Below, piece by piece: positions 2,426 to 57,234 of a DNA stretch of 64,000 bases (within the stretch, counting starts at the first letter, position 1; every line of letters starts with the position of its first letter). The stretch comes from a virus, in the IMG/VR virus record IMGVR_UViG_3300042691_027019, positions 1-64,000 of that record, one strand, 5' to 3'. Below the pieces are notes generated by a model. That model did no database searches. It was not told the DNA's origin and saw nothing but the letters and a program-made list of their open reading frames with translations. The position numbers and the translations under genes were made by a program.

Positions 2426-3601
2426 TTATTTGAATTTTAAAGTTGTTGAGTCTACTGTTACTGTACCTAAGTAGTCTTGAGCATTACCAAGAGATGACGC
2501 AGTGTTTGTTAACTCTACGTAACCGTATCTTGTTAAGAAGCCTACTACTGGTTCAAAAGTAGATGGGTCTAGCACAACGCCAGATGACATCAACGGTATG
2601 TATGGACAATAGAACGCAGCAGCATCAGCTTCTGACGAACCTTTGTAACCAATTAATACAGATGTGTTATCTGAAGCGTAAGCGTTAACGTACACTCTCA
2701 TAGCTGAGTTCAATGTTCCAACAAATTTAGTGTTAGTTGGAGCTTCGAACGTACCTTCAGTTGATCTTGCGAACGCTGAAGTTGTAGCTGATTGAAGTAT
2801 AGTTAAAGCAGTTGGTGATACCACCGCCCAGTTACCTGCACCTCTTCTAGTTCTTTGTGCAATTGTGTTAGCAACTCTGTTGATCAAGATTGCAAGTGCC
2901 GCATGCTCATCGCCTACGAAAGTTGCAGTTCCAGATACAGCTGATTGGTCGAATGCTTGCTGGTTAGCAGATCCTGCCAATGTTAATAACGAACCGATGA
3001 TTTCTTGGTCGATTTCAGCAGTAATTTCTTGTGCTAAAGCGGCCATGATTTCAGCTTCGATATCGATACCTTGCTGTGCCTGAGCGTCTTGAGCAGCTTC
3101 AAAAGTCCATCTTGCAGATAGTTTTCTTGATTTTGCTTCAACAGCTTGTTTTAAGATCTGGATGCTTAATTTTTTTCCAGGAGTACCTTCTAAAGAAGCA
3201 GTTGCGCCTGCTTTTGTAGAAGAGTTGTCACCTGAATAAGCTTCAGCGATCTTGAATGGAGATAACGCTTCTTCACCAGCAGTTGTTGTAGTTGTACCGC
3301 TAGATGCTTCAGCATATCTTATTCTTAAAGTGTGGATTTGTCCCACTGGACCAGTCATAGGTTGTACACCAACTAACTCGTTAGCGATAACGGTTGGAAG
3401 TACTCGTCTGATTACTGGTAGTATTACTCTGTTTAATGTAGCAACGTTGCCGGCACTTGTAGCACCTGCAGTAGCAGACTCAGATAACGCTCTTCTAGTA
3501 TTTTCTAGAACGATATCTAAAGTCTTTTTTCTGTTACCACTTAAACCTTCGGTCAATGCGGCTTTTGTTTCGCCCCATTTTGATTCAAATAGTTCTGACA
3601 T
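2426..3601 (-). CDS. 23: Major capsid protein gp23
   Basis: A 391-residue protein that forms the hexameric lattice of the phage head. The N-terminus (MSELFESKWG) is followed by a helical pro-region and then the characteristic gp23 core around residues 60-110 (LNRVILPVIRRVLP, VGVQPMTGPVG). Ala/Thr/Ser-rich middle sections and a C-terminal TRYGYVEL segment match marine T4-like gp23 proteins, which are shorter than the T4 version. Family knowledge says the N-terminal propeptide is removed by gp21 during head maturation. It ends the gp20-21-22-23 head cluster and is followed by a strong terminator, as expected for the most abundant transcript. Confidence 0.95.
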   Translation of the reverse strand: MSELFESKWGETKAALTEGLSGNRKKTLDIVLENTRRALSESATAGATSAGNVATLNRVILPVIRRVLPTVIANELVGVQPMTGPVGQIHTLRIRYAEASSGTTTTTAGEEALSPFKIAEAYSGDNSSTKAGATASLEGTPGKKLSIQILKQAVEAKSRKLSARWTFEAAQDAQAQQGIDIEAEIMAALAQEITAEIDQEIIGSLLTLAGSANQQAFDQSAVSGTATFVGDEHAALAILINRVANTIAQRTRRGAGNWAVVSPTALTILQSATTSAFARSTEGTFEAPTNTKFVGTLNSAMRVYVNAYASDNTSVLIGYKGSSEADAAAFYCPYIPLMSSGVVLDPSTFEPVVGFLTRYGYVELTNTASSLGNAQDYLGTVTVDSTTLKFK

Positions 3602-10199: not shown

Positions 10200-12413
10200 T
10201 TATACTAGAGAAGGCCCCACTTTATCAACCATTTGATATGTTTTTTTGGTATTCTTCTCTGTAGCCACTGCTATTGCTACTTGCTTATTTAATAGCTCAT
10301 TGGTGGCTTTGGTAGCTTCCAATAGCTGTTTGGCTGTTTGGTTATATTCCATCATGTACTGAGTTTGACGTGCATCGGGTGCAGTTTTGTTATAATCAGC
10401 GGTTTCTTCCGGATTTAGCACTCTTTCGCCTGCATGCACCTTTAACATGGTGGTTTTGGGCTCAAATGGTAAACCTATTTCTCCTAGAGTTCCGCTAGCC
10501 CTGCTAACAGGGTGTACTTTGCCACTGTAATCGGCCTGTCCGGCCATGGACATTAATCCCCCTGCTACTGCTCCTACTGCAGTGCCGATTGGTCCAAAAT
10601 AAGATCCTACTGCGGCTCCGGTCAGCGCTCCAGATAACACTCCTAATGCTTTTCCAGTTTCAGTTTCCGATCCCGCTAGGTTTGATCCCACCCCGGCGAC
10701 CAGTCCGCCCACACCGTACCCCGCCATGGGTGATTTGATAAAAGATTTGCCTGCCTGTTTGGCCGTGCCTCCCATGCCGCTGAACATGCTGGCTCCTCCT
10801 GCCATGTTGGCCTGCTTCAGTGCCATGAATGTGCCCGCGTACACCACTCCTATCTGTGTGGCTTTGTCTAGAATGTAACTGGATAATTTCGTTCCTACAT
10901 AAAGCAATGCTTTGGTAGCAGGACTCATGGAATTTATGGTTGCTGCCAACATTTGGACTCCCATGTTTGTGCCATCAATGCCTTTGCCCAGTGTTCCGCC
11001 TAGATAGGCAAAAAATCCAGTTTCGATTGATTGGAAGCTGGCGCTGAGTGTTTTTGAAGCATTTTCAAATTGGCTCAATGAATTGGTTAGTGAGCTCTGT
11101 CTTTTCAGTGCTTCTGCAGATACTGAGTCAAGGTTCATTTGAGCTGTAGCAAATCTATTAACTCCCCCAAGCAGTTTATCTATAAAAGGTACCACGCCAT
11201 AGTCCGCAAGATCTCCAAAAGTTTTCTTACTTGATTTGGCTTCATCCTGCATCATCCTTAGAGCCGTGGCAGTGTCGATCTGTCCGCTAGTTAATTGTTT
11301 TACTATGGCTCCAGACCCTCGCATGATCATCACTAATTCTTCGGCGGCTTTTGTAGTAGGCACTCCTTGGCTGGCAATTAAATCCAACAATCCGGTCTTA
11401 AGTTCTGGCGCAAAACTGGTTATACCTGCAGCGAAAGTCTGTAGTCTAAGCTGTGTCTCTTTGGTCTGCTTGCTCATGAATGACATAAAGTTGGTCTGTG
11501 TCATCTGAGCTTGTAATTCTTTTTGCAATGATTGGCGACTCTGACCTGTGAGTTTGGATAATTTGTCCATCTCTACAACTAATTCTCTTGCAGCAGCCTG
11601 CTGAGTTTTGGTATCTCTAATGTCAATACTGCCAGTCAAACGTGATATGTTCAGTGTGGTTAATAGTGCTTCGTTTAGATCGTCCACAGTCAAACCTAGC
11701 GGTGCTAGATATTCTATGTTGGCAGTTCTAAATTCTTTAGACAGCCTGCTAAAATTAGTGGCTCCTAGAGTGGTGCTGCCATACAGTGCTGACAGACTCT
11801 GACTGTTGTCTTTGATCAGTTTCGTAAAATCTTCTATGGGCAATCCTGCTGCGGCTGCTGTCTCTCTTAATTTAACAAGGTCTTGACCGAACGATGCTCC
11901 TACAGAACTCAATGTTCTATAGATATCTACGTTGCTCTGCAGGCTGGAACCTATGCCAACAACCACATCGCCAAATCCGCCTAATCTTCCTTTGAATACT
12001 GATGTATACTCGTCAATCTTGCCAGATCCTTTATGGGCAGCTGATCCAAATGCTTTTACAAACTCTGTGGCTTTTTTGTGTTTTTCTGCTGCTTCTGTGG
12101 CTGCTGCAGAACTTAATCCGGCTGCTCTGTATGATTGATAAAAACCTTTTTCTAATTTTTCTGATGCCTCTAACAAATCCAACTGTTTCTTAGTTCCTTT
12201 ATCAACAGCCGTGTTAAAATCTTCTAAATCTTTTTCTGACATTTTCAACATCAATGCGTGTTTTTTTAACTCTGTATTGATGTTGCGTATCTGTGCTGGG
12301 TTTAAATTACCTTTTTTTAGCTCTTCGGTTAGATCTTTTATGATTTTTTTATTCGTCTCTTGATTGCTCTTTGCTGAAGCTTCCAGTATCTTCTTAATAT
12401 CCTGCTCGTCCAT
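10200..12413 (-). CDS. Probable tail tape measure protein
   Basis: A 737-residue protein. The first half is Lys/Glu/Gln/Leu-rich helical sequence (LTEELKKGNLNPAQIRN), the middle has long amphipathic helices, and residues about 540-630 are a Gly/Ala-rich hydrophobic section (GYGVGGLVAGVGSN, ALTGAAVGSYFGPIG) like the membrane-active region of tape measure proteins. The C-terminal 60 residues return to charged helix. At about 0.15 nm per residue, known for tape measures, it would fit a tail of about 110 nm. Its divergent neighbour is gp26, a tail-assembly factor. T4 gp29 does this job; sequence similarity to gp29 is not evident to me, so I give no symbol. Confidence 0.7.
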   Translation of the reverse strand: MDEQDIKKILEASAKSNQETNKKIIKDLTEELKKGNLNPAQIRNINTELKKHALMLKMSEKDLEDFNTAVDKGTKKQLDLLEASEKLEKGFYQSYRAAGLSSAAATEAAEKHKKATEFVKAFGSAAHKGSGKIDEYTSVFKGRLGGFGDVVVGIGSSLQSNVDIYRTLSSVGASFGQDLVKLRETAAAAGLPIEDFTKLIKDNSQSLSALYGSTTLGATNFSRLSKEFRTANIEYLAPLGLTVDDLNEALLTTLNISRLTGSIDIRDTKTQQAAARELVVEMDKLSKLTGQSRQSLQKELQAQMTQTNFMSFMSKQTKETQLRLQTFAAGITSFAPELKTGLLDLIASQGVPTTKAAEELVMIMRGSGAIVKQLTSGQIDTATALRMMQDEAKSSKKTFGDLADYGVVPFIDKLLGGVNRFATAQMNLDSVSAEALKRQSSLTNSLSQFENASKTLSASFQSIETGFFAYLGGTLGKGIDGTNMGVQMLAATINSMSPATKALLYVGTKLSSYILDKATQIGVVYAGTFMALKQANMAGGASMFSGMGGTAKQAGKSFIKSPMAGYGVGGLVAGVGSNLAGSETETGKALGVLSGALTGAAVGSYFGPIGTAVGAVAGGLMSMAGQADYSGKVHPVSRASGTLGEIGLPFEPKTTMLKVHAGERVLNPEETADYNKTAPDARQTQYMMEYNQTAKQLLEATKATNELLNKQVAIAVATEKNTKKTYQMVDKVGPSLV

Positions 12414-12492: not shown

Positions 12493-13350
12493 ATGACAGA
12501 AAACACAAACCCGTTAAAACGCTACTATAGACAACCGCAAATCAGCATACAGTTGCCTAGTAGAGAGCGATATTATCCTGCAAATGTGGTACAAAAAACT
12601 ACCACAGGCGAACACCCTGTGCTGCCCATGACTGCTATGGATGAATTAGCATTCCGTACACCAGACAGCATGATGAGTGGACAGGCCACTGTGGATGTTA
12701 TTCGTAGTTGTATCCCCACAATACAGGATCCATGGCAACTGGTGAATTATGATATTGACACTGTGTTGATTGCGATTAGAATTGCGAGTTATGGCGAAAC
12801 TATGGAAATGACTTCTGTAGTGCCTGGGACCAACGAATCAATAACTCATACAGTGAATCTACCACAGATGTTGGAGCAGATAAAAAAAGATCAAATCACA
12901 GATCAATGCACTCTACAAGACGGTTTAACTGTGCAGGTTAGTCCATTAACTTATAAACAGATCACTGAATCTCAATTAAAAACATTTGAACAACAGAGAA
13001 TCTATGCACAAGTGTCACAGAGCGAAATGACAGCGGAAGAAAAAACTCGAAGATTTACAGAAAGTTTCCGAATATTGAGTGACCTTAACATGAGTTTGTT
13101 AGTGAGTAACATACAAAAAATTACTCTACCGTCTGGAGAATCGGTAACTGATCGCAATCAAATCAAAGAATTTATACAGAATGCTGATGCTAAAACAATC
13201 AAAGATTTAGAGAACAAATTAGCAGACATAAGACAGCAGGGTTCGATCAAACCAGTTAGAATCAAATCCACAGAAGAACAAATCAAAGCAGGCGCTCCTG
13301 CCTCATACGAAGTGCCGATCACTTTTGATAACGCAAATTTTTTCGTATAA
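12493..13350 (+). CDS. 26: Baseplate hub assembly / tail chaperone gp26 (zero-frame product)
   Basis: A 285-residue protein of the T4 gp26 baseplate family. Conserved family features are RYYRQPQISIQLPSRERYYP at the N-terminus, LPMTAMDELAFRTPD, SGQATVDVIRSCIP and IAIRIASYGE. gp26 acts in assembly of the baseplate hub and is not a major virion component. It is transcribed divergently from the tape measure gene. The last codons (GCA AAT TTT TTC GTA, stop) contain the heptamer A-AAT-TTT, a canonical -1 slippery sequence, and the -1 frame is open for 77 more codons. I therefore infer two products: this 285-residue form and a 360-residue frameshifted form, as for lambda gpG/gpGT-type tail chaperones. 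Confidence 0.88.
   Translation: MTENTNPLKRYYRQPQISIQLPSRERYYPANVVQKTTTGEHPVLPMTAMDELAFRTPDSMMSGQATVDVIRSCIPTIQDPWQLVNYDIDTVLIAIRIASYGETMEMTSVVPGTNESITHTVNLPQMLEQIKKDQITDQCTLQDGLTVQVSPLTYKQITESQLKTFEQQRIYAQVSQSEMTAEEKTRRFTESFRILSDLNMSLLVSNIQKITLPSGESVTDRNQIKEFIQNADAKTIKDLENKLADIRQQGSIKPVRIKSTEEQIKAGAPASYEVPITFDNANFFV
13335..13341 (+). promoter_or_regulatory. Predicted -1 ribosomal frameshift site A_AAT_TTT
   Basis: The heptamer fits X_XXY_YYZ exactly in the gp26 reading frame (last base of GCA, then AAT, TTT). The gp26 stop is two sense codons downstream (TTC, GTA). After slippage, translation enters a frame that ends at 13574. No strong stimulatory stem is obvious downstream; a short CCTT/AAGG stem at about 13397-13411 is the best seen. 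Confidence 0.65.
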
Positions 13351-13574
13351 AACTACTCACACTCTCGGAATCTGACATTATAAAATATTTGAAAGACCTT
13401 GATAGTGAAGGTAAAAGTATCAAACACGAATTATTAAAAATCTGCTGGTACATGCGAGGCGGAGTAACTTACCAAGAAGCGCTGCATATGAGTGCTGGCG
13501 AAAGAAACATTGTGGCAGATATTGTGAAAGATAATTTAGAGACCACTAAGAAAACCGGACAACCATTCTTTTAA
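13341..13574 (+). CDS. C-terminal extension of gp26 reached by -1 frameshift
   Basis: This 77-codon open segment continues from the slippery site in the -1 frame and ends with KKTGQPFF. It contains a Trp/Tyr-rich helix region (LLKICWYMRGGVTYQEAL) and a charged helix. There is no ATG and no Shine-Dalgarno that would start it independently; the only alternative is a TTG at 13389 with no ribosome binding site, which would leave 61 residues. The conserved-looking WYMRGG section argues for real coding. In long-tailed phages the frameshifted C-terminal domain of the tail chaperone binds the tape measure protein, and the probable tape measure gene is the divergent neighbour. T4 gp51 might be the functional counterpart; I cannot show homology. 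Confidence 0.7.
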   Translation, partial: FRIKLLTLSESDIIKYLKDLDSEGKSIKHELLKICWYMRGGVTYQEALHMSAGERNIVADIVKDNLETTKKTGQPFF

Positions 13575-15284: not shown

Positions 15285-15734
15285 TTGAGTTTAAATATGG
15301 ACATGCAGTGGATTTACAAAAATGAACCGGTGGAACAATTACCAACGGATTGTGTGGGATTCGTGTATCTTATTACCAACACAGAGTCGGGCAGAATGTA
15401 TGTGGGAAAGAAACTAGCTCGATTCAAAACTACGCGATATAAAATGCACACGCAAAAAAACGGAAAAAAAGTACGCAAAAAAATTAGAGGCGCTGTGGAC
15501 AGCGATTGGCAGGACTACTATGGCAGCAGTGATCAGTTGAATCGCGATATAGAATCCTTGGGTAGAGAACGATTTCGCAGAGAGATACTTTATTATTGTC
15601 GCAGCAAAGCAGAACTAAACTACGTAGAAGCTCGTGAACAATTCTCAAGAAAAGTGTTGGAATCAGATCAGTACTATAACGGACATATTCGTGTGCGAGT
15701 GCATGGATCACTTATTATTGGTAAAGACGTATGA
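15285..15734 (+). CDS. GIY-YIG family nuclease (Seg-like)
   Basis: A protein of up to 149 residues. The sequence GFVYLITNTESGRMYVGKK holds the degenerate GIY-YIG pair (VYL ... YVG), followed by YYGSS and a charged helix region, FRREILYYCRSKAELNYVE, typical of Seg-type phage nucleases; Arg and Glu residues in these segments would be the catalytic set. Such genes are free-standing homing endonucleases or repair-type nucleases. The TTG at 15285 has a GGAG 6 bases upstream; the first ATG is at 15297, where the same GGAG is 18 bases away, so I prefer TTG with reservation. The stop overlaps the next gene's ATG (ATGA). Confidence 0.75.
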   Translation: MSLNMDMQWIYKNEPVEQLPTDCVGFVYLITNTESGRMYVGKKLARFKTTRYKMHTQKNGKKVRKKIRGAVDSDWQDYYGSSDQLNRDIESLGRERFRREILYYCRSKAELNYVEAREQFSRKVLESDQYYNGHIRVRVHGSLIIGKDV

Positions 15735-33494: not shown

Positions 33495-36400
33495 ATGGCT
33501 GATTCACCTATCAACAGCACAACTAATTACGAAGTTGTTACAGACAGTAACGGTGTGACTCTGAGAAGATCCATAGCTCATCTGCCATCGTTCTATAGAA
33601 CAGACAATAATCATAGATTTTTAACCAGCACTTTAGATCAATTAATACAACCAGGCAAATTAACAAGATTAGATGGCTATGTTGGTCGTCAATATTCTTA
33701 TACTAGACAAGCAGCTGACAGTTATATCGAAGCAACCAGCGAGGACAGAGCCAATTATCAATTAGAACCTGCTGTGACCTACACAGACAAAGATACATCT
33801 TCTATCAATCCAGAAGACCAAGTTAAATTCACAGCCACCTATGATGATTATATTAATCAAATAAAATTCTTTGGTGGCAATGTTGATAATCATGATAGAC
33901 TTAATAAAGAGATAGTGTATGCATGGAATCCTGCAGTAGACTTTGACAAATTAATCAATTACAGAGAATACTATTGGTTGCCAGAAGGTCCAAATCCCAT
34001 TTTAGTTTCTAATAACGGTACAAATTCAGTTACTGAGATATCAGTGGATCATGTGGGCAACACTGCTTATACTTTCAGCACATATGATGGTGTACAAAAT
34101 CCCACAATAACATTATACAGAGGTAACACTTACAAATTTGTATTAGATGTAGACGGTCATCCTTTCTATATTATGACCGAACCATTTACCACGGGCATAG
34201 CCGAGGATGGCAGCACATCAGTGATTTATTCTTCAGCTGTGTCAGGCAATGGCACTGAGGTTGGTATTTTAACTTTTACGGTACCATCAGATGCACCAGA
34301 CATATTGTATTATCAGTGTGGCAATCACCAAGCAATGCAGGGTATTTTAACAATTAAAACTATCACTGCTGTAACAAAAATAGATGTAGAGCACGAGATA
34401 GTAGGCACAAAGAATTATATCATGTCTTCAGGAATAAAACTGAGCAATGGTATGAAATTAAAATTTATTGATAATGTGACCAGTGCAACATATAAAAATA
34501 AAGAATTTTATGTGGAAGGAGTGGGCGATCATATTACTCTAACAGATACTGCTCGATTAATCACACCAGAATCTTATTCTGCAGAGACCACAGAATTGTA
34601 TGACACAGTGACTTACGATAGTAGACCTTATGCAATCAGTTTTTATAGACCCGAAACACCCGATTATATCACAATCAAAAGAGACAGTCCAGATAACAAT
34701 GCATGGAGTAGATATAACCGATGGTTTCATAAATCAGTAATAAAAACATCAGACGATGTTAATGGTAATATTACCGCTTTATTAGAAACAGCTAGAGCCA
34801 AAAGACCCATAATAGAATTTGACTCAGGCATACAATTATATGATCACGGAACAGAAGGATTAAACTCTGTGGCCTTGATTGACACAGTGACCACAGATGT
34901 GTTCTCCACAGTGGTCAACTCTTCAGGATACATTGTGGACGGTATTTCTTTAGCACATGGCATGAGAGTATTATTCACAGCAGACACCGATTCAATAGTT
35001 AAAAATAGAATTTATAAAGTGAATTTTGTCACAGTGGGAGGTAACTCAGTAATAAATCTTACGCAAGAAGCAGATGGCATACCACAAGATGGTCAAACTG
35101 TGTATGCAGAGTTAGGAGCAAACTACCAAGGAAAAACTTTTTATTACAGTGAGTCTGAAAATGCATGGCAGCAAGGACAGACAAAAACAGCTCTAAATCA
35201 AAAACCTTTATTTTCTTTACAGGATAATAATGATATAAAATTTAATGATCAAACAGTGTATCAAAATTCTTCTTTTGCAGGTGCTGCTGTTTTTGAATAT
35301 AAAATTTCAGAAACTTCTCCTGTGGATACAGTGTTAGGATTGAGAGTAAAATACAACACTATCAATAATGTGGGAGATATTACTTTTACTTCTGATCTTG
35401 GATCGGGATCATTCACTTATAAGAGTGGAGACAAAGTGATATCTAAAAATTTTGGCACAGGTCATGTGCATTATATTATCAGTAGAACAGAAAATGAAGC
35501 CAAAACATCTTGGATTAAACGACTTGAAGACAGCAAACAACGAGTAATAAGAACATTCATTGTTGAAGCTAATGAATTAAGATTATTTCCTATCGATGTA
35601 TTTGCGAACAGTGTGGAATTGGAAGATTTAGATGTACATGTAGATGTTAACTCTAAAGTACAGAATCTAAACACAGATTATACATTAGTAGATGGAACCA
35701 CAAACAAATATATAAAATTTTCATATGATCTTTTGGTGGGAGACATAGTTAAAATACAATGTTACAGTGCAGCCAAAAGAGTTGTCGGCAAAGGTTTATA
35801 TGAAATACCAGAAAATTTATCAGTCAATCCGTTCAACGAGCAGTTGAAAGATTTTACCTTTGGACAAATATTAAATCATGTGCATGATATAAATGAAAAG
35901 AATGTTGAACTAACAGGAGATATACCTGGAGACAGTAATTTACGAGATTTGCCTGATGTAAGAACCAAAGGTGGAACCATAATACAACATTCAGCACCAT
36001 TGCCTCAAGCTATGTTCTCATTAATAGATCAGAATGCCAATGCGATTTCTGCTATAGAATATTGTTCTTTAGAATATCAAAAATTTAAAGAAGGATTTCA
36101 ATCTAATATCGATATTGGACGGTCCTATGAAGGAGATCCTGCTGCAGCAGTGGACGAAATAATCAAAACCATGCATGGTGATCGCGGAATCAGTTTTCCA
36201 TTCTTCTATGAAGACATGATAGGTTACGGAGAAAAAGTCAGCACAAGAACATACACAGTACAAGACAGCACAGAAACAGAGTACGCTATTGACAGTCAGT
36301 TTGATATCAATGTTTCCAGCAATCGAGCAGTCTATGTTTACCTTAACAACACACAATTATTACAAGGTTACGATTACACTTTTAGTGAAACCGAAGATAG

Positions 36401-39400
36401 TGTGAATATAACTGCTGCTCTCGTTGAAGGAGATGTGATTAAAATTAAAGACTACAGTGATACCACAGGCAGTTTTGTGCCACTAACACCAACAAAGGTG
36501 GGAATATATCCTCGATTTAAACCAGAAAAAATTCTTGATGACACATATTTAGAATCAACCTACGTGATAGTGGGACACGATGGCAGCAAGACAGTGGCGT
36601 ATGGAGACTACAGAGACGATATCTTATTAGAATTAGAGAGAAGAATTTATAACAATTGTAAAATTGTTTATGATTCAGCGTTATTGCCAGAAACAGAGGT
36701 GAGACCTTCTGGATTTACACAGGGAGATTATACTATAGGTGAAATCAATAATATTTTAAGTTACGATTTCTATTCTTGGGCAGGTAGAAATGCTGTGGAC
36801 TATCAAAAGAATGAGATATATGATGATTCTAATGCTTTTACTTTTAATTACAGCAGCAATAAAGATTCTGTAAACAGCGAATATCTACCAGGACACTGGA
36901 GAGGCATATACAATTATTTCTATGACACGGATCGACCACACACTCATCCTTGGGAAATGTTAGGACACAGTGAAAAACCCACGTGGTGGGAAGATACCTA
37001 TGGTCCAGGACCATACAGCTCGGGCAACGAATTGTTATGGAATGATCTAGCAGCAGGCTATGACAGCGGCAAAGAATCAGCTGATCCTAGATATGTCAGA
37101 TCAGACTTGTTAAATTATCTACCAGTGGACGAGAATGGACAATTGCTATCACCTATAGATTCAGGATTGATAGACAATTACGTATCAGCAGGTATTAATA
37201 AAGTATGGAAATTTGGAGATCACTCGCCGACAGAAACTGCTTGGAGAAGAAGTGCTCAATATCCTTTTGCTGTAATAAAATTATTAGCATTAACTCGACC
37301 AGCAAAATTCTTTGGATTATTTTTTGATAACAGTAGATTGGGTTTGAATGTTTCAGGTAATGTTATTGACAGTGACACAGAAGTGGCACAGAATATACGC
37401 ACAGCCAAATATCATTTGGAAACATCAACAGATAATGAAACCGGCACAACCACTCGTTATATTACCGGAGGATATCAACCGTTTGTTGTGAACTATCTAA
37501 TTAAAAATGGATTAGATCCAGCAGTATTTTTCTATGATAAAATGAAAAATCTCAATGTACAATTAGCATACAAATTGGGAGGATTCACAGACAAACAAAA
37601 TTTAAGAATATTAACAGACAGTGTTAGTCCAGGATCCACAGCTGGCTCACAGTTTATACCAGATGAGAACTATAAAATACTATTTAGAATCAGTAATCCA
37701 ATAAACACATTTGAATATTCAGGAGTGCTGATAGAATTAAACACAGCCACCACAGGAGATGGCAGCACACTGGAAGGCGGATACAAAGTTATTGGTTATA
37801 ACACAATCAAACCATATTTTAAAATATTTGAACCATTAAAAAATGGCAACAGTTATTCCATTGAAGCAGGCAATGCTCGAGCAACCATTTACAAGGATTA
37901 TGGAAATGTAGAAAAAGTTGTAACCTATGGCACAGTGTTCAAAGATGTCCAATCGGTAGTGAATTTCCTAACAGGATATGGAAAATATTTAGAATCACAG
38001 GGATTTGTTTTTGATAAATTTTCTAGAGAATTAAAAGAAATTGCCAATTGGGAGATGTCATCCAAAGAATTCTTATATTGGACAAGACAAGGATGGGCTC
38101 CAGGATCGGCTATTACACTAAGTCCAGGAGCTGAAGGATTTCATCTCTCAACCAAAGACAGTGTGATAGGAAGATTAAAGAATCTACAGGGAGAATACAC
38201 AGTATTAGATTCTGCTGGTAGTACAGTTAACAGCAAATCAATTAGTACAAAACGCATAGGAACCACTTTTGAAATAATCAGCAAATTTCCAGAATCAGGC
38301 ATATACAATATCACAATGAATGCTGTACAGAAAGAACACATTCTATTATTTGACAATATCACAGTGTTTTCGGATATTTTATTACAGTTAGCAACAGGAT
38401 TCCGTCAACAGAGATTCCGATTAATTGGTTGGAAAACTGGAGACTGGAACGGTGATTATTATTCTCCAGGATTTGTTTTTGATGAAGCTCAAGTAGCAGC
38501 ATGGACAGCTAATACTGATTATCAAATTGGCGATACAGTAGAATACAATGCTAAATTTTACACTTCTAAAGTTAATCATAATTCTGGAAACACGTTCGAA
38601 TCAGATAAATGGCAGAAGAAGAAAGAAAAACCTGCTGCACAATTAATACCTAATTTTGATTATAAAATTTCTCAGTTTAATGATTTTTATAACTTAGAGA
38701 GCAATAATTTTGATGAAGGTCAACAGAGATTGGCTCAGCATCTTACAGGATATCAATCTAGAAGTTATCTAGACAATCTTTTCCTTAACGACGTTTCTCA
38801 ATACAAATTCTATCAAGGATTTATTAGAGAAAAAGGTACTCTTAATGCTATTAATAAATTGGTTAAAGCAAAATTTTATGGAGAAAATATTGATCTTACT
38901 ATCTATCCTGAATGGATGATTCGAGTGGGAGAATTTGGAAACACAGATAATAAAAAATTTGTTCAGATTCGTATGCCTGACGATACATTTACTAATAATA
39001 TACAGAGCATAGAAATATTAGACAATGTATCAGACTCGTTGGATTGGGAAAAATCTGTTAGAGTACTTACTTCTGAATTATATAATAAAACTATAGAATA
39101 TAACAGTCAAGAAACTTTCTCTCTGTATGATTACACTGAAGAAGGTACAGATAAAGACACAGTTCAAAAATTTAAAACAGCAGGATATCCTAGATTACTT
39201 GATGTGGATCACACTGCTTTTACGTCTACGGATCTGCTGAATCTTGATGTATCTTCTATAACCAAAAACGATCTAGTATGGGTAGCAAAAAAAGATAACA
39301 ATGATTGGGACGTATTAAGATTGACATCCACAGTTTTAAAAATTATTGCCATGCGATCCATTAACAATGCTACTCAATTAGAAGTGATACTAACTGGCAA

Positions 39401-42400
39401 TCATGATTTTGTGGCAGGCGATTATTTCTCAATACTAAACAGTCAAAGCACACAATTAAATGGAGTGTATAAAGTATACAGCACACCTACCACAGCATCA
39501 TTGATATTCAATTACAACAAATCGAATAGAATATCCAGCACAGTGGTATTATCAGATCAATCTACTATAAACACCTATGGTAACATTTACAAATGGGTCA
39601 GCGTGAGATTTGACAGCATGGACAATGTTAATGACCGAATACCTTATAGCGTTTACAGAGATGTGGACACAGCAAATTTTGTTAATGGTGATAGAGTGTT
39701 TGCTGACAACAGTACGGGCAAATGGGCAATATATGAAAAAACAGATCCATACGAAACAAAATTATTGTTATCCCCAGATTCTGTAAACGAGCAATATTTT
39801 GGTTATCAAATAGTTGCTAGAAATGATAGTAGAACATTAATAGTAGCATCGCCAGGTGAAGGTCAAGGACATATACATTTTCTCTATAGAGCAGAAAATC
39901 AACCAGGAAATTTATTCTCTTCTACCAGCAGTTATGAAATGAATGACGGAAATGATGCTACATCTCGTTTGGGAGAAACTTTAACAATTAGCACTGATGA
40001 AAATTACATTGCAGCAGGAGCTCCTTACACTAATACATTAGCAAATGACGGCAGTACCAGACACGAAAATGCTGGATTAATAAAGATTTTTGCATGGAAT
40101 AATGTAGACAAAAATTATTCTTTCTACAACACTGTGTTACCACCCACTGATGATAGCTCTACATTGATAGATATGAATTATGGATGGGCCTGTGCCATAG
40201 CAGAACCTTCAGATGCCAGCACAGTTTCAACTAGACCAAAATTTCTTTTTGCGTCAGCTCCTGGACTAAACAACAATTCAGGAGTGGTATATGTGCATAC
40301 TCTACAAAAAGATCTAGCAGACAGTACCATACCTGTATGGAGACAAGATTCTGCGATATACAGTACAGAATCAGGATCAGGCAAAAGATTCGGTCACAGA
40401 TTAGCAGTCAACGATAATGCAGATATAATAGCAATCAGTAGTGTTGCTCCAGGCACTGCTGGACAGGTAGAAATATTTACAAAGAATAGTGTGAATGATG
40501 ATGGCAGCAGCATAGAAGATGGCAGTACCAAACATATTTTTACTCATAGACAAACATTGAAAGGTGTAAATGCAGATGGTAGCACTCTAAACACCGCGTT
40601 TGGAGAAAGTATTTCTATGAGCATCAACGGAGAATTGCTCGTAATATCTGCTCCTGGAAAAGATCAAGGAGAGCAAAATGATGCTGGAGCAATCTATATC
40701 TATAAATGGAACGCTGATGGATCAACAAATACCTATACTCTACAACAGACTATTGTAGCTCCAGAGTCTTCTACTAATATGAGATTTGGATCCACAGTGC
40801 AAATTAATAGAGCAAATAATAGAATAGTGATAGGAGCTGAAAAATTTGGAAATAATAGAAGTATGCTTTTTGATAACGGAGCCACAACGTTTGATTTAGG
40901 AGATACAGATATAGTGGATCTTAACATAGGATCTGGAGGAGTGTTTACTGCTACAAAATATGATACAGAATTTGTAATAGATGACAAATTAGTTACAACG
41001 AATGTAGATGCCAATGACGATTTTGGCAGAGGAATATTCATAACAGACACAACAGTGTTTGTAGGATCACCTCAGGATGATGTTTTAACAAACGATGGCA
41101 GCACATATAGACTAGATGAAGGAACTGTAACAATATTTGATCTTAAAGTGAGAAATTCTTATGCATGGACGGCATTGTCTACTGAAACAAATCTTGTTAA
41201 TGATAAAAAAGTAGATTCTTCTTTTATTTTTGATAGTGCAAATAATGAAATAATTGATTATTTAGATTACTATGATCCTGTCAAAGGCAGAATACTGGGT
41301 ATAGCCGACAGAGAAATTAACTACAAAACTGAATGGGATCCAGCAATATACAATATCGGAACCAAAGATAAAACTGTCAATACAAAAACAGCATGGGGTG
41401 AAGAGCATGTGGGTGAAGTTTGGTGGAATATGAGCACTGTAAGGTGGGTTTGGTATGAACAACACGGTTTAGAATATCAAACTAAAAATTGGGGCAAATT
41501 ATTTCCAGGATCATCAGTGGACATATATGAGTGGGTAGAATCAACTCTGTTACCATCTGAATGGAATCTGAGAGCAGACACAGTGCCGGGATTATCACAA
41601 GGAGTCTCTGGAAAACCTCTACATCCAGACAATACAGTTTTTACAGTGAAACAAAAATACAACACTATTTCTGATAGTTTTGTTAATTATTATTATTTCT
41701 GGATAAAAAATTCTGTATTTTTGCCGGCAAAAAATAAATCAGCCACAGAAAGAAAGAACACTACAGCATACGTGTCCAATCTAATAGAGAATCCATTAGC
41801 ATCAGGAATAAAATATTATGCTATCACAGGAACAAACTCATTAATAACTTTTAATGTTAAAAATAGTTTAACTAATGATAATACAGTTCTTAATATAAAT
41901 TATAAAAATAATAATAATGAAGACACAGCACACAGTGTATGGAAATTAATTAGAGAAGGTGACAAAGATGATAGTCCAAATGCATTATTAGAGAAAAAAT
42001 GGTGGGACAGTCTTGTGGGCAAAGATACGTCAGGCAACGAAGTACCAGATCTAACATTGCCAATCAACCAACGATACGGAAATAGTGTTAGACCTAGACA
42101 GAGCTGGTATGTGGATAGATTTGCTGCTCTAAAAGAAATCGTAGATTACAGTAACAGCGTACTAAAAACAAAAGAATTAGCCAACAGTATCAGTTACGCA
42201 AATTTAAATTCAGCAGATCCAGAACCCACAGAAGCTTCAGGCGAATGGGATCGTAGAGTTGAAAGTTACGCAGATTTAACATACATCGATACTAGAGATA
42301 TCAGCGGCATAATTGATGTATTAGTAGCTAGCGATGAAGAAAACAGCAAAGGTTCTTGGGCAATCTATAACTGGAATCTTACAGAATGGATAAGAACGAA

Positions 42401-45400
42401 AGTACAGACATATAAGACGAGCACTTATTATAGTCTAGCTGATTGGTATGCTGATGGATATGACACAAACACTGTGATTGACAAACAGGTTAACTATCAG
42501 TATGAAGTTGAGACTATAGATTTAGAAATTGGAAGAATTGTAAAAGTATTAAGAGCCGACACAGGCGGTTGGAAATTATTTGAACAAACTGCAGAAGGAT
42601 TAAAAAATGTTGCCACACAAAATGGTACAATACAATTATCCAAAGCTCTGTATGACTATACTATTAAGAACACAGGATTTGATGCTGATGATACATTTGA
42701 TGCTAATTTCTTTGACCAAGAACCCACAATTGAAACCAGAAATATTTTAACAGCTCTAAGAGATGATATATTTGTGGGAGATCTAAAAATAGAATACAAT
42801 AATATATTCTTTATTGGATTAAGAAAAGTATTAGAAGAACAATTATACGTGGATTGGTTGAATAAATCTTCGTTTATAAACGTAACCAACAGTCTAAGAC
42901 CATTAGATCAGCGTAAGACTTATAGAGTGGGTAACGAAAACTTTGTAGAAGATTACATCAATGAAGTGAAACCTTTTCATACCAAGATAAGAGAATATAG
43001 ATTAGGATATACCACTACAGAAACACAAGATGGAATCAACACAGACTTTGATCTTCCAGCATTTTATGATGGCACTCGCATTAGGAATGTAGACGTGTCG
43101 GCAGATGTAGCATTAATGGCAAGTTACCCTTACCGTTTCTGGAGAGACAATTATAAAAAATATGTGGATTCTATTGTGGTAACCAAAGGTGGTAGTGGAT
43201 ATATCACTGCTCCTACAGTTACACTAGTTGGAGGAACAACCAAATCAGTGGGACCGTTCACAGTGTTGGGTAGAAGTAACAGTGGACCAACATCAGGACA
43301 ATCAGGATATTTTTATCCATTGTACACAGCAGCCGCAGATGCTGATCTAGCAGACAGTCAAGAGGGCGGAACAGGTACTAGCTCATTATTCACATTCAAT
43401 GAATACCCAAGCATAGAGTTTTATATGCCAGACTCTGATCAAAATACAGCCATCACAGATAGACCTACAGGATATGAAGTTTATACCACAGCAGACAATA
43501 CTCAAGCCACAGCAAGAGCGATAATACAGAATGGATCTGTGACAAGAATACAACTATTAACACCAGGCAGTAACTACACAGCCACACCACGAGTAGTATT
43601 AACAGGCGGAGGTTCTGGAGGAGTTACACCAGCAGATGCTGCTCGAGCCTATGCCAATTTAAGGAATGATCTTGTGAGAGATATCTCTACCACAATCAAA
43701 TTTGACCGAGTACAATCCACAGCCACAGTGTTGGATTGGGTAGCAAATACAGCCTATGCATACAATGATCTAATTAGATATGAAGACGGATTCTATAAAG
43801 TTAACAGTGGATTTACCAGCACAGAAGATTTCGATAACGGATTAACATATCTAACAAAATTGCGAGGCGATGAACCTTACATTACTGCTGCTGAAAGAAC
43901 TCTAGGATTGTACCAACCAGATGCTGGCATGCCAGGCAACGAGTTATCTCAAGTGATGACAGGAGTAGACTACGGCGGAGTTATGGTTACAGGATTAGCA
44001 TTCAACAGTGGACAGGGTTGGGATAGATCGCCATGGTACGATAATCCTTGGGACACATATGGTTTAAGCCGAGTGAAAACATTCTATGGAGATGGTAGCT
44101 CTACAGCATTTACATTTGCAACTGCTCCGAGTGCGACCGATGTATACACTGTATACATAAATGGTGTGAGACAAACGTCACTGGTATTCCGAGGCGATGG
44201 ATCTACCAAAACTTTCACAGTTATACCTGATGACAGCTCTGTGGTTGGCAACGGCGATGAAATACAGTTTATACCTTTTGATGATGACGGAGTACTAACA
44301 CCCACAGATGATAAAACTCTAGATTCATTGATCAGCGGTGGTCTTTTTGGATCAGCGGTGGGAATAGCACCGTCGGATATTATATTAGAAGGAGATGGAT
44401 TCATAACACCAGAAACCAGCTATGCTCCAGAAGAGAATGTGCCAGGTTCAATGTTTGACACTGTGGATATCAAAGTTTATACCACACCAGAGTCCGGCGT
44501 GCCGTTTATTGTGAACAAAAATTATATCGGTGATGGTTTAACTCTAACTTATAACATAGGACAATATCCAGGAACAGATGATTCAGTGATAGTGACTGTG
44601 GATGGTCAAACCATGAGGCAGAATGACGAATACACAGTAGATGCTGCTGCAAAAACTATTACTTTTTTATCAACACCGGTAAGTGGCAGCAAGATATCTA
44701 TCAAGAGTTTTGCTGTGTCTGGAAGTAATTACATGGTATTGAACACTTTCATTGGAGACGGATCCACAGCATCATTCACAACATCTGCTAGAGAGACTTT
44801 CCAATTGGACAGTGCGGCCAGCCAACTATATGTCACTGTAGATGGTCAACCCACAACAGCATACAATTACACAGTATCAGGCAAATTAATCACAATAACA
44901 TTACATACTGGTGATGGATCTACTCTGTTGCCTCCAGCAGCAGGCAAATTAATACAGATATCATCATTCAATCAACCTGCGGGCAGTGGTAGAGCTTATG
45001 CTGAAGTTAGAAGTGAGCAGTTGACACACGATGGTACCAACAGATATACTTTGACATATCCTGCAGGTGCTATTGGACCATATTCAGGATTGACGCTTTT
45101 AGAAGTAGGCGGAAAAATATTGAGAGGACCAGACAATACCTACTATGCAGGCGATGGCAGCACCACAAGTTACAGTCTAGGCACAGATCCTGCCAACACA
45201 GTAACAGTAGCCAATGAAGTAGAAGTTTATGTCAACGGTTCTAAAAAATATCAGTTCACAGATTACACAGTGAATATCGGTACACAACAGATACAGTTTG
45301 TGTCTGCTCCAAGTGGTACAGATGTTATTGCTGTGTCTGTACTATTGGATAATCATTATTACAACGAAGGATCAGATGTGATATTAAAACCAACACAACT

Positions 45401-46367
45401 GGCTGCTGATGGAATATCTTTGTCATCTGGAGATATATTTGTGGCCATAACATTTAACAATGCTGTGGGAATGAATCAAAGAAGAGAAACGTTTGCTGGT
45501 GTTGTGTCAGGAGAATTCTATCTAGAATATACGCCTCTTAACAGTGATTATGTGTTTGTATGGTTAAATGGAGAATCATTGACACAAGGATACAACTTCC
45601 TTTTAAATGGTAATAAAATAACCATAGGTGGAATTACTGTATCAACAACAGACAGAATAGACGTGATGTATTTTGCTGCGGAGAGTGCAGTTAATGCTAC
45701 AGGATTCCGAATATTCAAAGATATGTTGAACAGAACCTTCTTCAAAAGAATCAGTGCTGATAATACCACAACATTGGCTGCAGCACTGGCAGATGATGCT
45801 ATATCAATTACAGTGGCAGATGGTAGCGTATTAGCATCTCCTCCGGGTGGATCGGTACCGGGAGTCATATTCATAGACAAAGAAAGGATTGAATACTTTA
45901 TCAAATCCGGCAACACTCTATCTCAATTGAGAAGAGGCACACTAGGTACAGGTATAAAAGTACACGCAGCAGGCACACAAGTAGTGGATGCTTCAGGTTC
46001 TCAAACTGTGCCTTACGCAGAAACAGTTTACACAAAAACATCTATGGGAGATGGTAGCACCAGTATGTTCCCTACCACAATTGCAGCAGCAACACCATAT
46101 GAATTGGATGTGTTTGTGGGAGGTCGAAGATTGCCATACATGAGCGAAGATGGCAGCACTGTGAACTACACAGTGGATGGCAGTACTGCAAATGTGGCAC
46201 TTACTGATGCACCAGCAGCAGATGTACAGGTAAAAATCGTACAAAAACGTGGAGTAGTATGGTATACTCAAGGAGCGGGCACTGCAGCCGATGGTAAAGG
46301 ACTGCAAAAATCAACAACTAATCAAGCAAAATTCATAGCAGGAGAACCAACAAATGTACCTGAATAA
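33495..46367 (+). CDS. Giant modular baseplate/fibre protein, 4290 residues (gp7-like position)
   Basis: By far the largest gene of the window, coding for about 470 kDa. By position after gp6 it is the gp7-type wedge protein of marine T4-like phages, greatly extended. Modules read by eye: residues 1-160 wedge-like N-terminus; about 190-290 a cupredoxin-like domain with H222, C275, H278, M281; about 930-1010 a beta module like the C-terminal repeats; about 1665-1710 and 3410-3450 W-x-N-T-x-Y... sections like carbohydrate-binding CBM5/12 modules; about 2100-2555 a set of FG-GAP-like beta-propeller repeats; about 3225 and 3350 GGSGY-type strands; about 3530-4260 at least five GDGST-headed adhesin-like repeats. 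It runs uninterrupted without frameshift. The stop overlaps the next start by 14 bases. Confidence 0.85.
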   Translation: MADSPINSTTNYEVVTDSNGVTLRRSIAHLPSFYRTDNNHRFLTSTLDQLIQPGKLTRLDGYVGRQYSYTRQAADSYIEATSEDRANYQLEPAVTYTDKDTSSINPEDQVKFTATYDDYINQIKFFGGNVDNHDRLNKEIVYAWNPAVDFDKLINYREYYWLPEGPNPILVSNNGTNSVTEISVDHVGNTAYTFSTYDGVQNPTITLYRGNTYKFVLDVDGHPFYIMTEPFTTGIAEDGSTSVIYSSAVSGNGTEVGILTFTVPSDAPDILYYQCGNHQAMQGILTIKTITAVTKIDVEHEIVGTKNYIMSSGIKLSNGMKLKFIDNVTSATYKNKEFYVEGVGDHITLTDTARLITPESYSAETTELYDTVTYDSRPYAISFYRPETPDYITIKRDSPDNNAWSRYNRWFHKSVIKTSDDVNGNITALLETARAKRPIIEFDSGIQLYDHGTEGLNSVALIDTVTTDVFSTVVNSSGYIVDGISLAHGMRVLFTADTDSIVKNRIYKVNFVTVGGNSVINLTQEADGIPQDGQTVYAELGANYQGKTFYYSESENAWQQGQTKTALNQKPLFSLQDNNDIKFNDQTVYQNSSFAGAAVFEYKISETSPVDTVLGLRVKYNTINNVGDITFTSDLGSGSFTYKSGDKVISKNFGTGHVHYIISRTENEAKTSWIKRLEDSKQRVIRTFIVEANELRLFPIDVFANSVELEDLDVHVDVNSKVQNLNTDYTLVDGTTNKYIKFSYDLLVGDIVKIQCYSAAKRVVGKGLYEIPENLSVNPFNEQLKDFTFGQILNHVHDINEKNVELTGDIPGDSNLRDLPDVRTKGGTIIQHSAPLPQAMFSLIDQNANAISAIEYCSLEYQKFKEGFQSNIDIGRSYEGDPAAAVDEIIKTMHGDRGISFPFFYEDMIGYGEKVSTRTYTVQDSTETEYAIDSQFDINVSSNRAVYVYLNNTQLLQGYDYTFSETEDSVNITAALVEGDVIKIKDYSDTTGSFVPLTPTKVGIYPRFKPEKILDDTYLESTYVIVGHDGSKTVAYGDYRDDILLELERRIYNNCKIVYDSALLPETEVRPSGFTQGDYTIGEINNILSYDFYSWAGRNAVDYQKNEIYDDSNAFTFNYSSNKDSVNSEYLPGHWRGIYNYFYDTDRPHTHPWEMLGHSEKPTWWEDTYGPGPYSSGNELLWNDLAAGYDSGKESADPRYVRSDLLNYLPVDENGQLLSPIDSGLIDNYVSAGINKVWKFGDHSPTETAWRRSAQYPFAVIKLLALTRPAKFFGLFFDNSRLGLNVSGNVIDSDTEVAQNIRTAKYHLETSTDNETGTTTRYITGGYQPFVVNYLIKNGLDPAVFFYDKMKNLNVQLAYKLGGFTDKQNLRILTDSVSPGSTAGSQFIPDENYKILFRISNPINTFEYSGVLIELNTATTGDGSTLEGGYKVIGYNTIKPYFKIFEPLKNGNSYSIEAGNARATIYKDYGNVEKVVTYGTVFKDVQSVVNFLTGYGKYLESQGFVFDKFSRELKEIANWEMSSKEFLYWTRQGWAPGSAITLSPGAEGFHLSTKDSVIGRLKNLQGEYTVLDSAGSTVNSKSISTKRIGTTFEIISKFPESGIYNITMNAVQKEHILLFDNITVFSDILLQLATGFRQQRFRLIGWKTGDWNGDYYSPGFVFDEAQVAAWTANTDYQIGDTVEYNAKFYTSKVNHNSGNTFESDKWQKKKEKPAAQLIPNFDYKISQFNDFYNLESNNFDEGQQRLAQHLTGYQSRSYLDNLFLNDVSQYKFYQGFIREKGTLNAINKLVKAKFYGENIDLTIYPEWMIRVGEFGNTDNKKFVQIRMPDDTFTNNIQSIEILDNVSDSLDWEKSVRVLTSELYNKTIEYNSQETFSLYDYTEEGTDKDTVQKFKTAGYPRLLDVDHTAFTSTDLLNLDVSSITKNDLVWVAKKDNNDWDVLRLTSTVLKIIAMRSINNATQLEVILTGNHDFVAGDYFSILNSQSTQLNGVYKVYSTPTTASLIFNYNKSNRISSTVVLSDQSTINTYGNIYKWVSVRFDSMDNVNDRIPYSVYRDVDTANFVNGDRVFADNSTGKWAIYEKTDPYETKLLLSPDSVNEQYFGYQIVARNDSRTLIVASPGEGQGHIHFLYRAENQPGNLFSSTSSYEMNDGNDATSRLGETLTISTDENYIAAGAPYTNTLANDGSTRHENAGLIKIFAWNNVDKNYSFYNTVLPPTDDSSTLIDMNYGWACAIAEPSDASTVSTRPKFLFASAPGLNNNSGVVYVHTLQKDLADSTIPVWRQDSAIYSTESGSGKRFGHRLAVNDNADIIAISSVAPGTAGQVEIFTKNSVNDDGSSIEDGSTKHIFTHRQTLKGVNADGSTLNTAFGESISMSINGELLVISAPGKDQGEQNDAGAIYIYKWNADGSTNTYTLQQTIVAPESSTNMRFGSTVQINRANNRIVIGAEKFGNNRSMLFDNGATTFDLGDTDIVDLNIGSGGVFTATKYDTEFVIDDKLVTTNVDANDDFGRGIFITDTTVFVGSPQDDVLTNDGSTYRLDEGTVTIFDLKVRNSYAWTALSTETNLVNDKKVDSSFIFDSANNEIIDYLDYYDPVKGRILGIADREINYKTEWDPAIYNIGTKDKTVNTKTAWGEEHVGEVWWNMSTVRWVWYEQHGLEYQTKNWGKLFPGSSVDIYEWVESTLLPSEWNLRADTVPGLSQGVSGKPLHPDNTVFTVKQKYNTISDSFVNYYYFWIKNSVFLPAKNKSATERKNTTAYVSNLIENPLASGIKYYAITGTNSLITFNVKNSLTNDNTVLNINYKNNNNEDTAHSVWKLIREGDKDDSPNALLEKKWWDSLVGKDTSGNEVPDLTLPINQRYGNSVRPRQSWYVDRFAALKEIVDYSNSVLKTKELANSISYANLNSADPEPTEASGEWDRRVESYADLTYIDTRDISGIIDVLVASDEENSKGSWAIYNWNLTEWIRTKVQTYKTSTYYSLADWYADGYDTNTVIDKQVNYQYEVETIDLEIGRIVKVLRADTGGWKLFEQTAEGLKNVATQNGTIQLSKALYDYTIKNTGFDADDTFDANFFDQEPTIETRNILTALRDDIFVGDLKIEYNNIFFIGLRKVLEEQLYVDWLNKSSFINVTNSLRPLDQRKTYRVGNENFVEDYINEVKPFHTKIREYRLGYTTTETQDGINTDFDLPAFYDGTRIRNVDVSADVALMASYPYRFWRDNYKKYVDSIVVTKGGSGYITAPTVTLVGGTTKSVGPFTVLGRSNSGPTSGQSGYFYPLYTAAADADLADSQEGGTGTSSLFTFNEYPSIEFYMPDSDQNTAITDRPTGYEVYTTADNTQATARAIIQNGSVTRIQLLTPGSNYTATPRVVLTGGGSGGVTPADAARAYANLRNDLVRDISTTIKFDRVQSTATVLDWVANTAYAYNDLIRYEDGFYKVNSGFTSTEDFDNGLTYLTKLRGDEPYITAAERTLGLYQPDAGMPGNELSQVMTGVDYGGVMVTGLAFNSGQGWDRSPWYDNPWDTYGLSRVKTFYGDGSSTAFTFATAPSATDVYTVYINGVRQTSLVFRGDGSTKTFTVIPDDSSVVGNGDEIQFIPFDDDGVLTPTDDKTLDSLISGGLFGSAVGIAPSDIILEGDGFITPETSYAPEENVPGSMFDTVDIKVYTTPESGVPFIVNKNYIGDGLTLTYNIGQYPGTDDSVIVTVDGQTMRQNDEYTVDAAAKTITFLSTPVSGSKISIKSFAVSGSNYMVLNTFIGDGSTASFTTSARETFQLDSAASQLYVTVDGQPTTAYNYTVSGKLITITLHTGDGSTLLPPAAGKLIQISSFNQPAGSGRAYAEVRSEQLTHDGTNRYTLTYPAGAIGPYSGLTLLEVGGKILRGPDNTYYAGDGSTTSYSLGTDPANTVTVANEVEVYVNGSKKYQFTDYTVNIGTQQIQFVSAPSGTDVIAVSVLLDNHYYNEGSDVILKPTQLAADGISLSSGDIFVAITFNNAVGMNQRRETFAGVVSGEFYLEYTPLNSDYVFVWLNGESLTQGYNFLLNGNKITIGGITVSTTDRIDVMYFAAESAVNATGFRIFKDMLNRTFFKRISADNTTTLAAALADDAISITVADGSVLASPPGGSVPGVIFIDKERIEYFIKSGNTLSQLRRGTLGTGIKVHAAGTQVVDASGSQTVPYAETVYTKTSMGDGSTSMFPTTIAAATPYELDVFVGGRRLPYMSEDGSTVNYTVDGSTANVALTDAPAADVQVKIVQKRGVVWYTQGAGTAADGKGLQKSTTNQAKFIAGEPTNVPE

Positions 46368-55782: not shown

Positions 55783-57234
55783 ATGCCAATTATTACTAAA
55801 ACATTCACATACACAGGAACAACTCAGCAGGCCACAATTCCAGCTGGAGCATCTTCAGTAACTTTTTATATCTGGGGAGGAGCAGGTGGTGGCGGCGGTG
55901 GAGACAGTGCTGGCCCAGGTAGAGCAGGAGCAGCAGGACATTATGCTACAGGTACTATAGATCTTACATCACACGTGGGATCAACTTTAACGTTGGGAGT
56001 AGGCGGAGGAGCTGGTGGAAAAAGTAATGGTAGAAGTTTAACAGGATATTCAGGCGGTATAGGTGGAACACAAGGACCTTCTGGATCATCAGGTGCTGGT
56101 GGAGGTGGAGGTGGAGCCACAGTAATAAGAATTGGAGCTACAGATATGGCCATAGCAGGTGGTGGCGGTGGTGGCGGAGGAGATGGACAACACAGTACAG
56201 GAACAGACGGAATTAACAGTAACGATCCTACTCTAGCATCACCAGGCACACTAGGAGAAAACGGAGCCGACCACTCGGGAGATGGTGCAGGAGCTGGAGC
56301 TGGTGGTGGTGGAACAGATGGCGGAAGAAGCGGCAACGGACCAGGAGGAGATGATGGAGCCACAGGAGGATATTCAGGTTCAAATTTAATACCAGTCGGA
56401 GGCACACAAAATAATGGTTCAGGCACAGTGCCATATACAGGTTCAGGATATTATCAATCAGGAGTAGCTGTGGGAGGAACGTCAGGTTCTGCAGGCGGAA
56501 ATGGACTGGCAATATTGGTATTCAATGTTAGTGTAGAATCAAAAATTAAAGTAAGCAATGCATGGAAATCTATAACTGCAATGAAATTTAAAAAAGCAGG
56601 AGTATGGAAAGATATCACAGCAGCCTATGTTAAAATAAACGGTGTATGGAAAGCTATATTCAATTCAGGAATAAATTTTGCAAGCACTGCTGCAGGATTT
56701 GGAGATAATACAGGCAATCCTTCTTCAGGCACACCAGGATCAGGTGGAACAAGTGGGGGTGGAGGAGGTGGATGCTCTATTATCTGCACTAAATTACACG
56801 AATTAGGTTATCTATCAGATGAGATCTATCAAGCAGATGAGCTTTTTGGACACTGGCTAAGACAGACAGATCCTGATGCTTATTATGGATATTTAAAATG
56901 GGCACGAGTAGTTGTGGATTGGATGAGCAACGAAGGTCCACAATGTATGTTCTGGATTCAAAATAAAGCCCAAAGAAATGCTCGTCAAAGAGAAATGGCT
57001 GTGAGATGGGCAAGAAGAATTGCCACTCCATGGGCTCAGCACATGGCTTACAAAATGGGAGTGTTAAAAGAAGATAATCGAGCAGGCAGATGGATAATGA
57101 ATATTGGAATCTCTGTAAGCAGAATTGTGGGAAAATTTGTTAAACATACTAACCAGCCTACAAAAAATGTAGCCATAGGTTATACTATGTGGGCAATGTT
57201 TGGATTATTATACATAATAGCAGGAGTAAAATAA
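55783..57234 (+). CDS. Glycine-rich tail adhesin with C-terminal helical domain
   Basis: A 483-residue protein. Residues about 1-245 are Gly-rich (GGAGGGGGGDSAG and many similar runs), a polyglycine-sandwich-like domain of the type that carries receptor-binding loops in T-even gp38 adhesins. Residues about 250-300 repeat a K-V/A-W-K-x-I motif (SNAWKSIT, AGVWKDIT, NGVWKAIF), three copies. After a second Gly run (about 315-330) comes a 150-residue helical, Trp-rich domain (CTKLHELGYLSDEIYQADE, WARVVVDWMSNEG, ATPWAQHMAYKMG) that ends with a hydrophobic helix (GYTMWAMFGLLYIIAG), a candidate membrane-contacting tail. It shares one base with the next gene (TAATG). Confidence 0.78.
   Translation: MPIITKTFTYTGTTQQATIPAGASSVTFYIWGGAGGGGGGDSAGPGRAGAAGHYATGTIDLTSHVGSTLTLGVGGGAGGKSNGRSLTGYSGGIGGTQGPSGSSGAGGGGGGATVIRIGATDMAIAGGGGGGGGDGQHSTGTDGINSNDPTLASPGTLGENGADHSGDGAGAGAGGGGTDGGRSGNGPGGDDGATGGYSGSNLIPVGGTQNNGSGTVPYTGSGYYQSGVAVGGTSGSAGGNGLAILVFNVSVESKIKVSNAWKSITAMKFKKAGVWKDITAAYVKINGVWKAIFNSGINFASTAAGFGDNTGNPSSGTPGSGGTSGGGGGGCSIICTKLHELGYLSDEIYQADELFGHWLRQTDPDAYYGYLKWARVVVDWMSNEGPQCMFWIQNKAQRNARQREMAVRWARRIATPWAQHMAYKMGVLKEDNRAGRWIMNIGISVSRIVGKFVKHTNQPTKNVAIGYTMWAMFGLLYIIAGVK

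Follow-up and report, generated by a model that had tools for sequence, protein, structure and literature searches.

At the locus under study, gp26 is followed by an extension in the –1 frame, two slippery heptamers overlap at the junction, and a large gene lies beside them on the opposite strand (Table 1). The window, that is, the whole stretch of DNA that we analyzed, spans 64,000 nucleotides (positions 1 to 64,000 of an IMG/VR virus record of 66,342 bases). The virus is a marine relative of phage T4. We found that the gp26 protein matches PF12322 (E 3.1e-12, 46.9–47.1 bits with a cut-off of 24.5) and phrog_150, named 'baseplate hub' (E 6e-16). The AlphaFold model of gp26 has a pLDDT of 85.5 and resembles a 'baseplate hub assembly protein, T4-like' in BFVD (TM 0.81, E 6.1e-24), and the model of the extension has a pLDDT of 90 and consists entirely of helices; the alignments for AlphaFold were built from IMG/VR loci only. 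Neither gp26 nor the –1 extension has a sequence relative among solved structures, and a PDB fold search gave no significant match for either model. As for homology to lambda-type TAC proteins, the one Foldseek hit was weak, to a 'tail assembly chaperone' of an Arthrobacter phage (E 6e-3, TM 0.27). In Pfam and PHROG, no family matches the extension of the window clade.

Table 1. Features of the gp26 locus in the window, with the corresponding loci of Ackermannviridae.
Feature	Position	Strand	Remarks
gp26, short form (TAC-N-like)	12493..13350	+	285 aa, 32.3 kDa
Heptamer A_AAT_TTT	13335..13341	+	clade-specific; overlaps T_TTT_TTC in the same frame
Heptamer T_TTT_TTC, primary –1 shift site	13338..13344	+	in frame in relatives
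Zero-frame stop TAA	13348..13350	+	one sense codon past T_TTT_TTC
–1 frame extension (TAC-C-like domain)	13344..13574	+	omega 0.10; AlphaFold model
Divergent neighbor, candidate for the tape measure or another structural virion protein	10200..12413	–	737 aa
Ackermannviridae gp26-extension loci	L261 2444–2617; L262 2729–2905; L171 3163–3366; L174 2989–3195		

The in-frame codons at the 3′ end of gp26 (13333–13350) are GCA AAT TTT TTC GTA TAA. An earlier note on this DNA had placed A_AAT_TTT within GCA AAT TTT, with gp26 ending two sense codons later, and both the heptamer and the codons that follow it (TTC GTA TAA) agree with this description. As the proposed shift site, A_AAT_TTT stands in part: it is fixed in the clade, and a –1 slip at either heptamer gives an identical protein (...ANFFRIK...), but the heptamer that is widely kept is T_TTT_TTC, which the note did not mention. 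Starting at the slip site, the –1 frame meets no stop until 13572–13574, as the note had also observed; its length, given there as 77 codons, is 78 residues when counted from the FF of the T run, 74 of them beyond the gp26 stop. The predicted fusion joins gp26 residues 1–284 to the extension and has 360 aa (41.0 kDa). Diagnostic peptides predicted from the sequence are AGAPASYEVPITFDNANFFR (tryptic) for the fusion and AGAPASYEVPITFDNANFFV for the short form. The –1 frame was further said to have neither an ATG nor a ribosome binding site of its own. A Shine-Dalgarno-like motif is indeed absent from the 25 nt upstream of the shift site in all relatives (0/88 with a motif), but the window does have an ATG in this frame, the first being extension residue 39, the M of WYMRGG.

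When we shuffled the bases of the segment, the 78-codon frame stayed open in 0.16% of shuffles, and a mechanical scan of 73 ORFs of at least 90 aa found five, including gp26, in which a heptamer lies in frame close to the stop and the –1 frame continues open beyond it. Given these chance and scan figures, the evidence from a single sequence is weak, and conservation decides. The capsid gene at 2426–3601 (minus strand) has T_TTA_AAA near its end and 49 open –1 codons, which we attribute to chance, the heptamer being present in 1 of 75 relatives. An A_AAA_AAT at 57162, in the ORF at 55783–57234, precedes a long open –1 frame, which is accounted for by the next gene, whose start overlaps the stop as TAATG (57234). 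The remaining candidates of the scan are at 49297 and 16016.

To compare the junction among relatives, we used gp26 and the extension as queries against IMG/VR and obtained 152 loci, many of them from the same contigs; the 88 distinct relatives that we analyzed form 53 clusters below 85% nucleotide identity. Every IMG/VR locus with an intact junction has both heptamers and the –1 extension. Thus, in the alignment of gp26 loci that the earlier note had suggested, heptamer and extension are kept together in all such clade relatives, and we found no close relative in which the heptamer is lost while the extension is intact. The ten bases AAATTTTTTC (A_AAT_TTT_TTC) are invariant in 88/88 distinct relatives. 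Across the 284 codon columns compared, and leaving Met and Trp aside, the third base is invariant in just four, namely the columns of the shift site (286–289). Elsewhere in these genes, Phe is encoded by TTT (49%) and TTC (51%), and AAT accounts for 42% of Asn codons. The codon that carries the first A of A_AAT_TTT alternates between GCA and TCA, and its third base is constantly A (88/88). Because T_TTT_TTC alone would not need this A, A_AAT_TTT also appears, from these alignments, to be under selection in the marine clade.

We then calculated omega for the extension, for which the earlier note had expected a dN/dS below 1. The value is 0.10 (95% bootstrap 0.05–0.16; 24 independent pairs), far below 1 and similar to that of gp26 (0.11), while the same DNA gives 1.3 and 3.2 when read in the other two frames. 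In extension codons 6–25, which lie ahead of the first ATG of the window, omega is 0.18. Judged by these values, the extension is under strong purifying selection as a –1 frame protein. Comparison of the relatives shows both that the shift site is conserved and that the –1 frame evolves under purifying selection.

With the extension as query, we found the same –1 arrangement in Atu_ph07 (Agrobacterium), Phosso (Sinorhizobium), Vibrio phage 2.275.O, RaK2, GAP32 and CBB, and reading the gp26 loci adds PA5oct, Munch, 121Q, XaC1, RAS14, SCTP-2 and XacN1. All of these jumbo-type phages have T_TTT_TTC except RAS14 and XacN1, which have T_TTT_TTT. The T run is common to all of these distant phages but A_AAT_TTT is not, and it is missing from most cyanophage-like and jumbo phages. 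In the cyanophage-like group, 77 of 77 distinct loci have T_TTT_TTC together with a –1 extension; here the heptamer is one codon ahead of the stop and the preceding codon always ends in T. KVP40-like, PhiW-14 and ZPAH1 phages also carry T_TTT_TTC, and Melnitz has a longer T run (T_TTT_TTT). Relatives with a normal start for the downstream frame were named by the earlier note as a finding that would speak against a frameshift. There are indeed some jumbo and KVP40-like phages whose gp26 stop is overlapped or followed by an ATG, near the start of the extension (as a TAATG overlap at the junction in VAP7, 121Q and KVP40-like phages), so that reinitiation is possible there, but the slippery run is kept in all of them.

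In the public records of 121Q and Atu_ph07, the extension appears as a hypothetical protein of its own whose start is arbitrary, and in those of RaK2 and PA5oct it is missing; the annotations of the extension in these four phages are probably incomplete. Ackermannviridae have a conserved –1 extension after gp26, yet their junctions (ATT TTC ATT TAA, GTT TTC ATC TGA or GTT TTT CGC TAATG) hold no canonical X_XXY_YYZ heptamer. In the Ackermannviridae phages 241, T765 and 3M, the extension is unannotated.

PF12322 covers both gp26 and gp51 of T4, two proteins that are listed as hub assembly chaperones on the basis of T4 genetics (review PMC3004832). In cyanophages, the –1 extension is the small ORF behind gp26 that annotations name baseplate hub assembly catalyst, and phrog_634, 'baseplate hub assembly catalyst', takes in both this extension and the C terminus of T4 gp51. 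An HMM of the cyanophage extension matches gp51 of T4 (E 7e-5) and of Phi1 (E 2e-6) but not gp26. Since gp26 and gp51 both belong to PF12322 and the extension HMM finds gp51 only, these matches indicate that in T4's group the short and long forms are separate paralogous genes, while elsewhere there is one gene with a shift site. T4 is thus like the phages described here in having a short and a long PF12322 protein, the long one with the C-terminal domain of the cyanophage extension. It differs in that T4 and RB49-like phages carry two paralogous genes and in that T4 gp26 ends in GLKEFFELL and has no T_TTT_TTC. Between the extension of the window clade and the C terminus of T4 gp51, HMM and hhalign comparisons found no significant similarity.

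The best explanation of these data, and in our judgment a very probable one, is that a –1 ribosomal frameshift at gp26 makes short and long tail-assembly chaperones in the style of lambda G/GT. The earlier note had proposed such a chaperone, and it is supported by the constancy of the shift site and by the low omega of the –1 frame. We infer ribosomal slippage as the mechanism, as well as the ratio of short to long form, the protein products and, from T4 genetics and the analogy with lambda, the chaperone role. The simplest reading of the site is tandem tRNA-Phe slippage on U_UUU_UUC. Most ribosomes would reach the TAA of gp26 and make the 285-aa short tail-assembly chaperone. A minority, with tRNA-Phe on UUU and UUC, would slip one base back on U_UUU_UUC, so that translation bypasses the stop and continues after NANFF into a helical domain of 76 residues; the resulting long form would have 360 aa. 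If the two forms act like lambda gpG/gpGT, the part common to both would coat the tape measure protein, the extra domain would recruit tail-tube subunits or hub parts, and a low slip frequency would set the ratio of short to long form.

The same fusion could arise if RNA polymerase slipped on the six T's, such that mRNAs one base shorter (or two longer) encode it. The conserved element does hold a homopolymer of six T's, and we found no RNA stimulator of ribosomal slippage: in the 60 and 100 nt downstream of the site in relatives, no hairpin is conserved (mean z +0.2, no consensus pairs). Six T's are, however, short for polymerase slippage. In addition, the fixed bases of the clade reach A_AAT before the T run, which fits tRNA re-pairing on X_XXY_YYZ and would be superfluous for a polymerase, and even very distant phages share the codon register NNT TTT TTC. 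We consider polymerase slippage improbable. That a homopolymer error in sequencing or assembly splits one continuous gene here has next to no probability. Homopolymers are prone to indel errors, but a like junction recurs in over 160 distinct metagenomic loci as well as many isolated phages that different groups sequenced, and this comparison refutes such an error.

The downstream frame could also be a small gene of its own, with reinitiation behind the gp26 stop and an incidental T run. It is annotated as such in 121Q, Phosso, GAP32 and KVP40-like phages, and the TAATG overlaps described above would suit it. We nevertheless hold this to be highly improbable: the first ATG of the window comes 39 residues into the extension and start codons are scattered among the relatives, none of the 88 has a Shine-Dalgarno-like motif, the codons ahead of that ATG are themselves under purifying selection, the T run is invariant at the nucleotide level, and T4 gp51 naturally joins the domain to a gp26-like N terminus. 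Returning to ribosomal frameshifting, the lack of a conserved hairpin and of a Shine-Dalgarno-like motif suggests that the usual stimulators are lacking or situated elsewhere. A more speculative proposal, which we regard as possible but rather doubtful in its two parts together, is that the composite A_AAU_UUU_UUC offers the ribosome two successive chances to slip, which would make the rate sufficient even with no RNA stimulator downstream, and that the C-terminal domain of the clade and the jumbo phages is non-homologous to that of gp51.

In its abstract, the 2022 study by Vladimirov, Gautam and Davidson reportedly describes frameshifting as conserved in several groups of T4-like phages, whereas T4 uses genes 26 and 51. 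For T4-like tail-assembly chaperones, PMC12846349 and PMC10885494 cite that study (Virology 566:9-15) and describe T4-like chaperones with poly-T slippery sites and some T4-like phages with separate short and long genes. The TAC-N/TAC-NC proteins are like the window locus in that they belong to the gp26/PF12322 family, have a short and a long form and a poly-T –1 shift near the 3′ end, and have their extension where gp51 has its C terminus. Compared with these descriptions, the window clade adds the invariant overlapping A_AAT_TTT and an extension outside Pfam and PHROG families. In phage Adele (Vandenendeviridae/Andersonviridae), a –1 shift in the TAC locus was likewise deduced, on the grounds that a poly-T motif is conserved and the –1 frame lacks stops, but the motif is GTTTTT rather than T_TTT_TTC (PMC12846349). 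In lambda, a –1 frameshift near the end of the tail chaperone gene gives gpGT as a minor extended form of gpG (PMC5009743), and the window resembles it in that a shift close to the end of a chaperone gene gives an extended form; in contrast, the slippery site differs and lambda has no detectable sequence relation to the window gp26. PMC5009743 describes the tail chaperone frameshift as widely conserved with T4 excepted, and T4 is addressed by the 2022 study.

Frameshift-made T4-like tail chaperones are thus already published. Because the 2022 study of T4-like chaperones precedes our analysis, the frameshift in the window is not novel in kind; it is a well-supported further example. The clade-specific ten-base site and the wide survey of jumbo phages are modest additions. 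They add a marine lineage to the range of frameshift-made tail chaperones, together with jumbo phages in whose public records the extension is entered as a distinct hypothetical protein or left out. Outside the group to which T4 belongs, T_TTT_TTC is almost universal, although Ackermannviridae include clear exceptions. The gp26 shift site also yields a simple annotation rule. In this set of phages one can test the frameshift, the site at which it occurs and the way two paralogous genes take its place.

The divergent neighbor of gp26 had been called the probable tape measure, and we consider it a plausible candidate for that role. It weakly matches phrog_14121, 'virion structural protein' (E 6.7e-6), full-length members of which occupy the same place in RaK2 and 121Q. 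A BLASTP comparison with the neighbors in RaK2 and Phosso gave no significant match. A divergent ORF of at least 200 aa adjoins gp26 in 86 of 88 relatives. Near gp26, the ORF at 15285–15734 resembles a homing endonuclease of the GIY-YIG/SegE type; PHROG names its family (phrog_447) 'NAD synthetase', which is at odds with the Pfam match. Further along the window, after the baseplate wedge gene, positions 33495–46367 are occupied by a single ORF of 4,290 aa.
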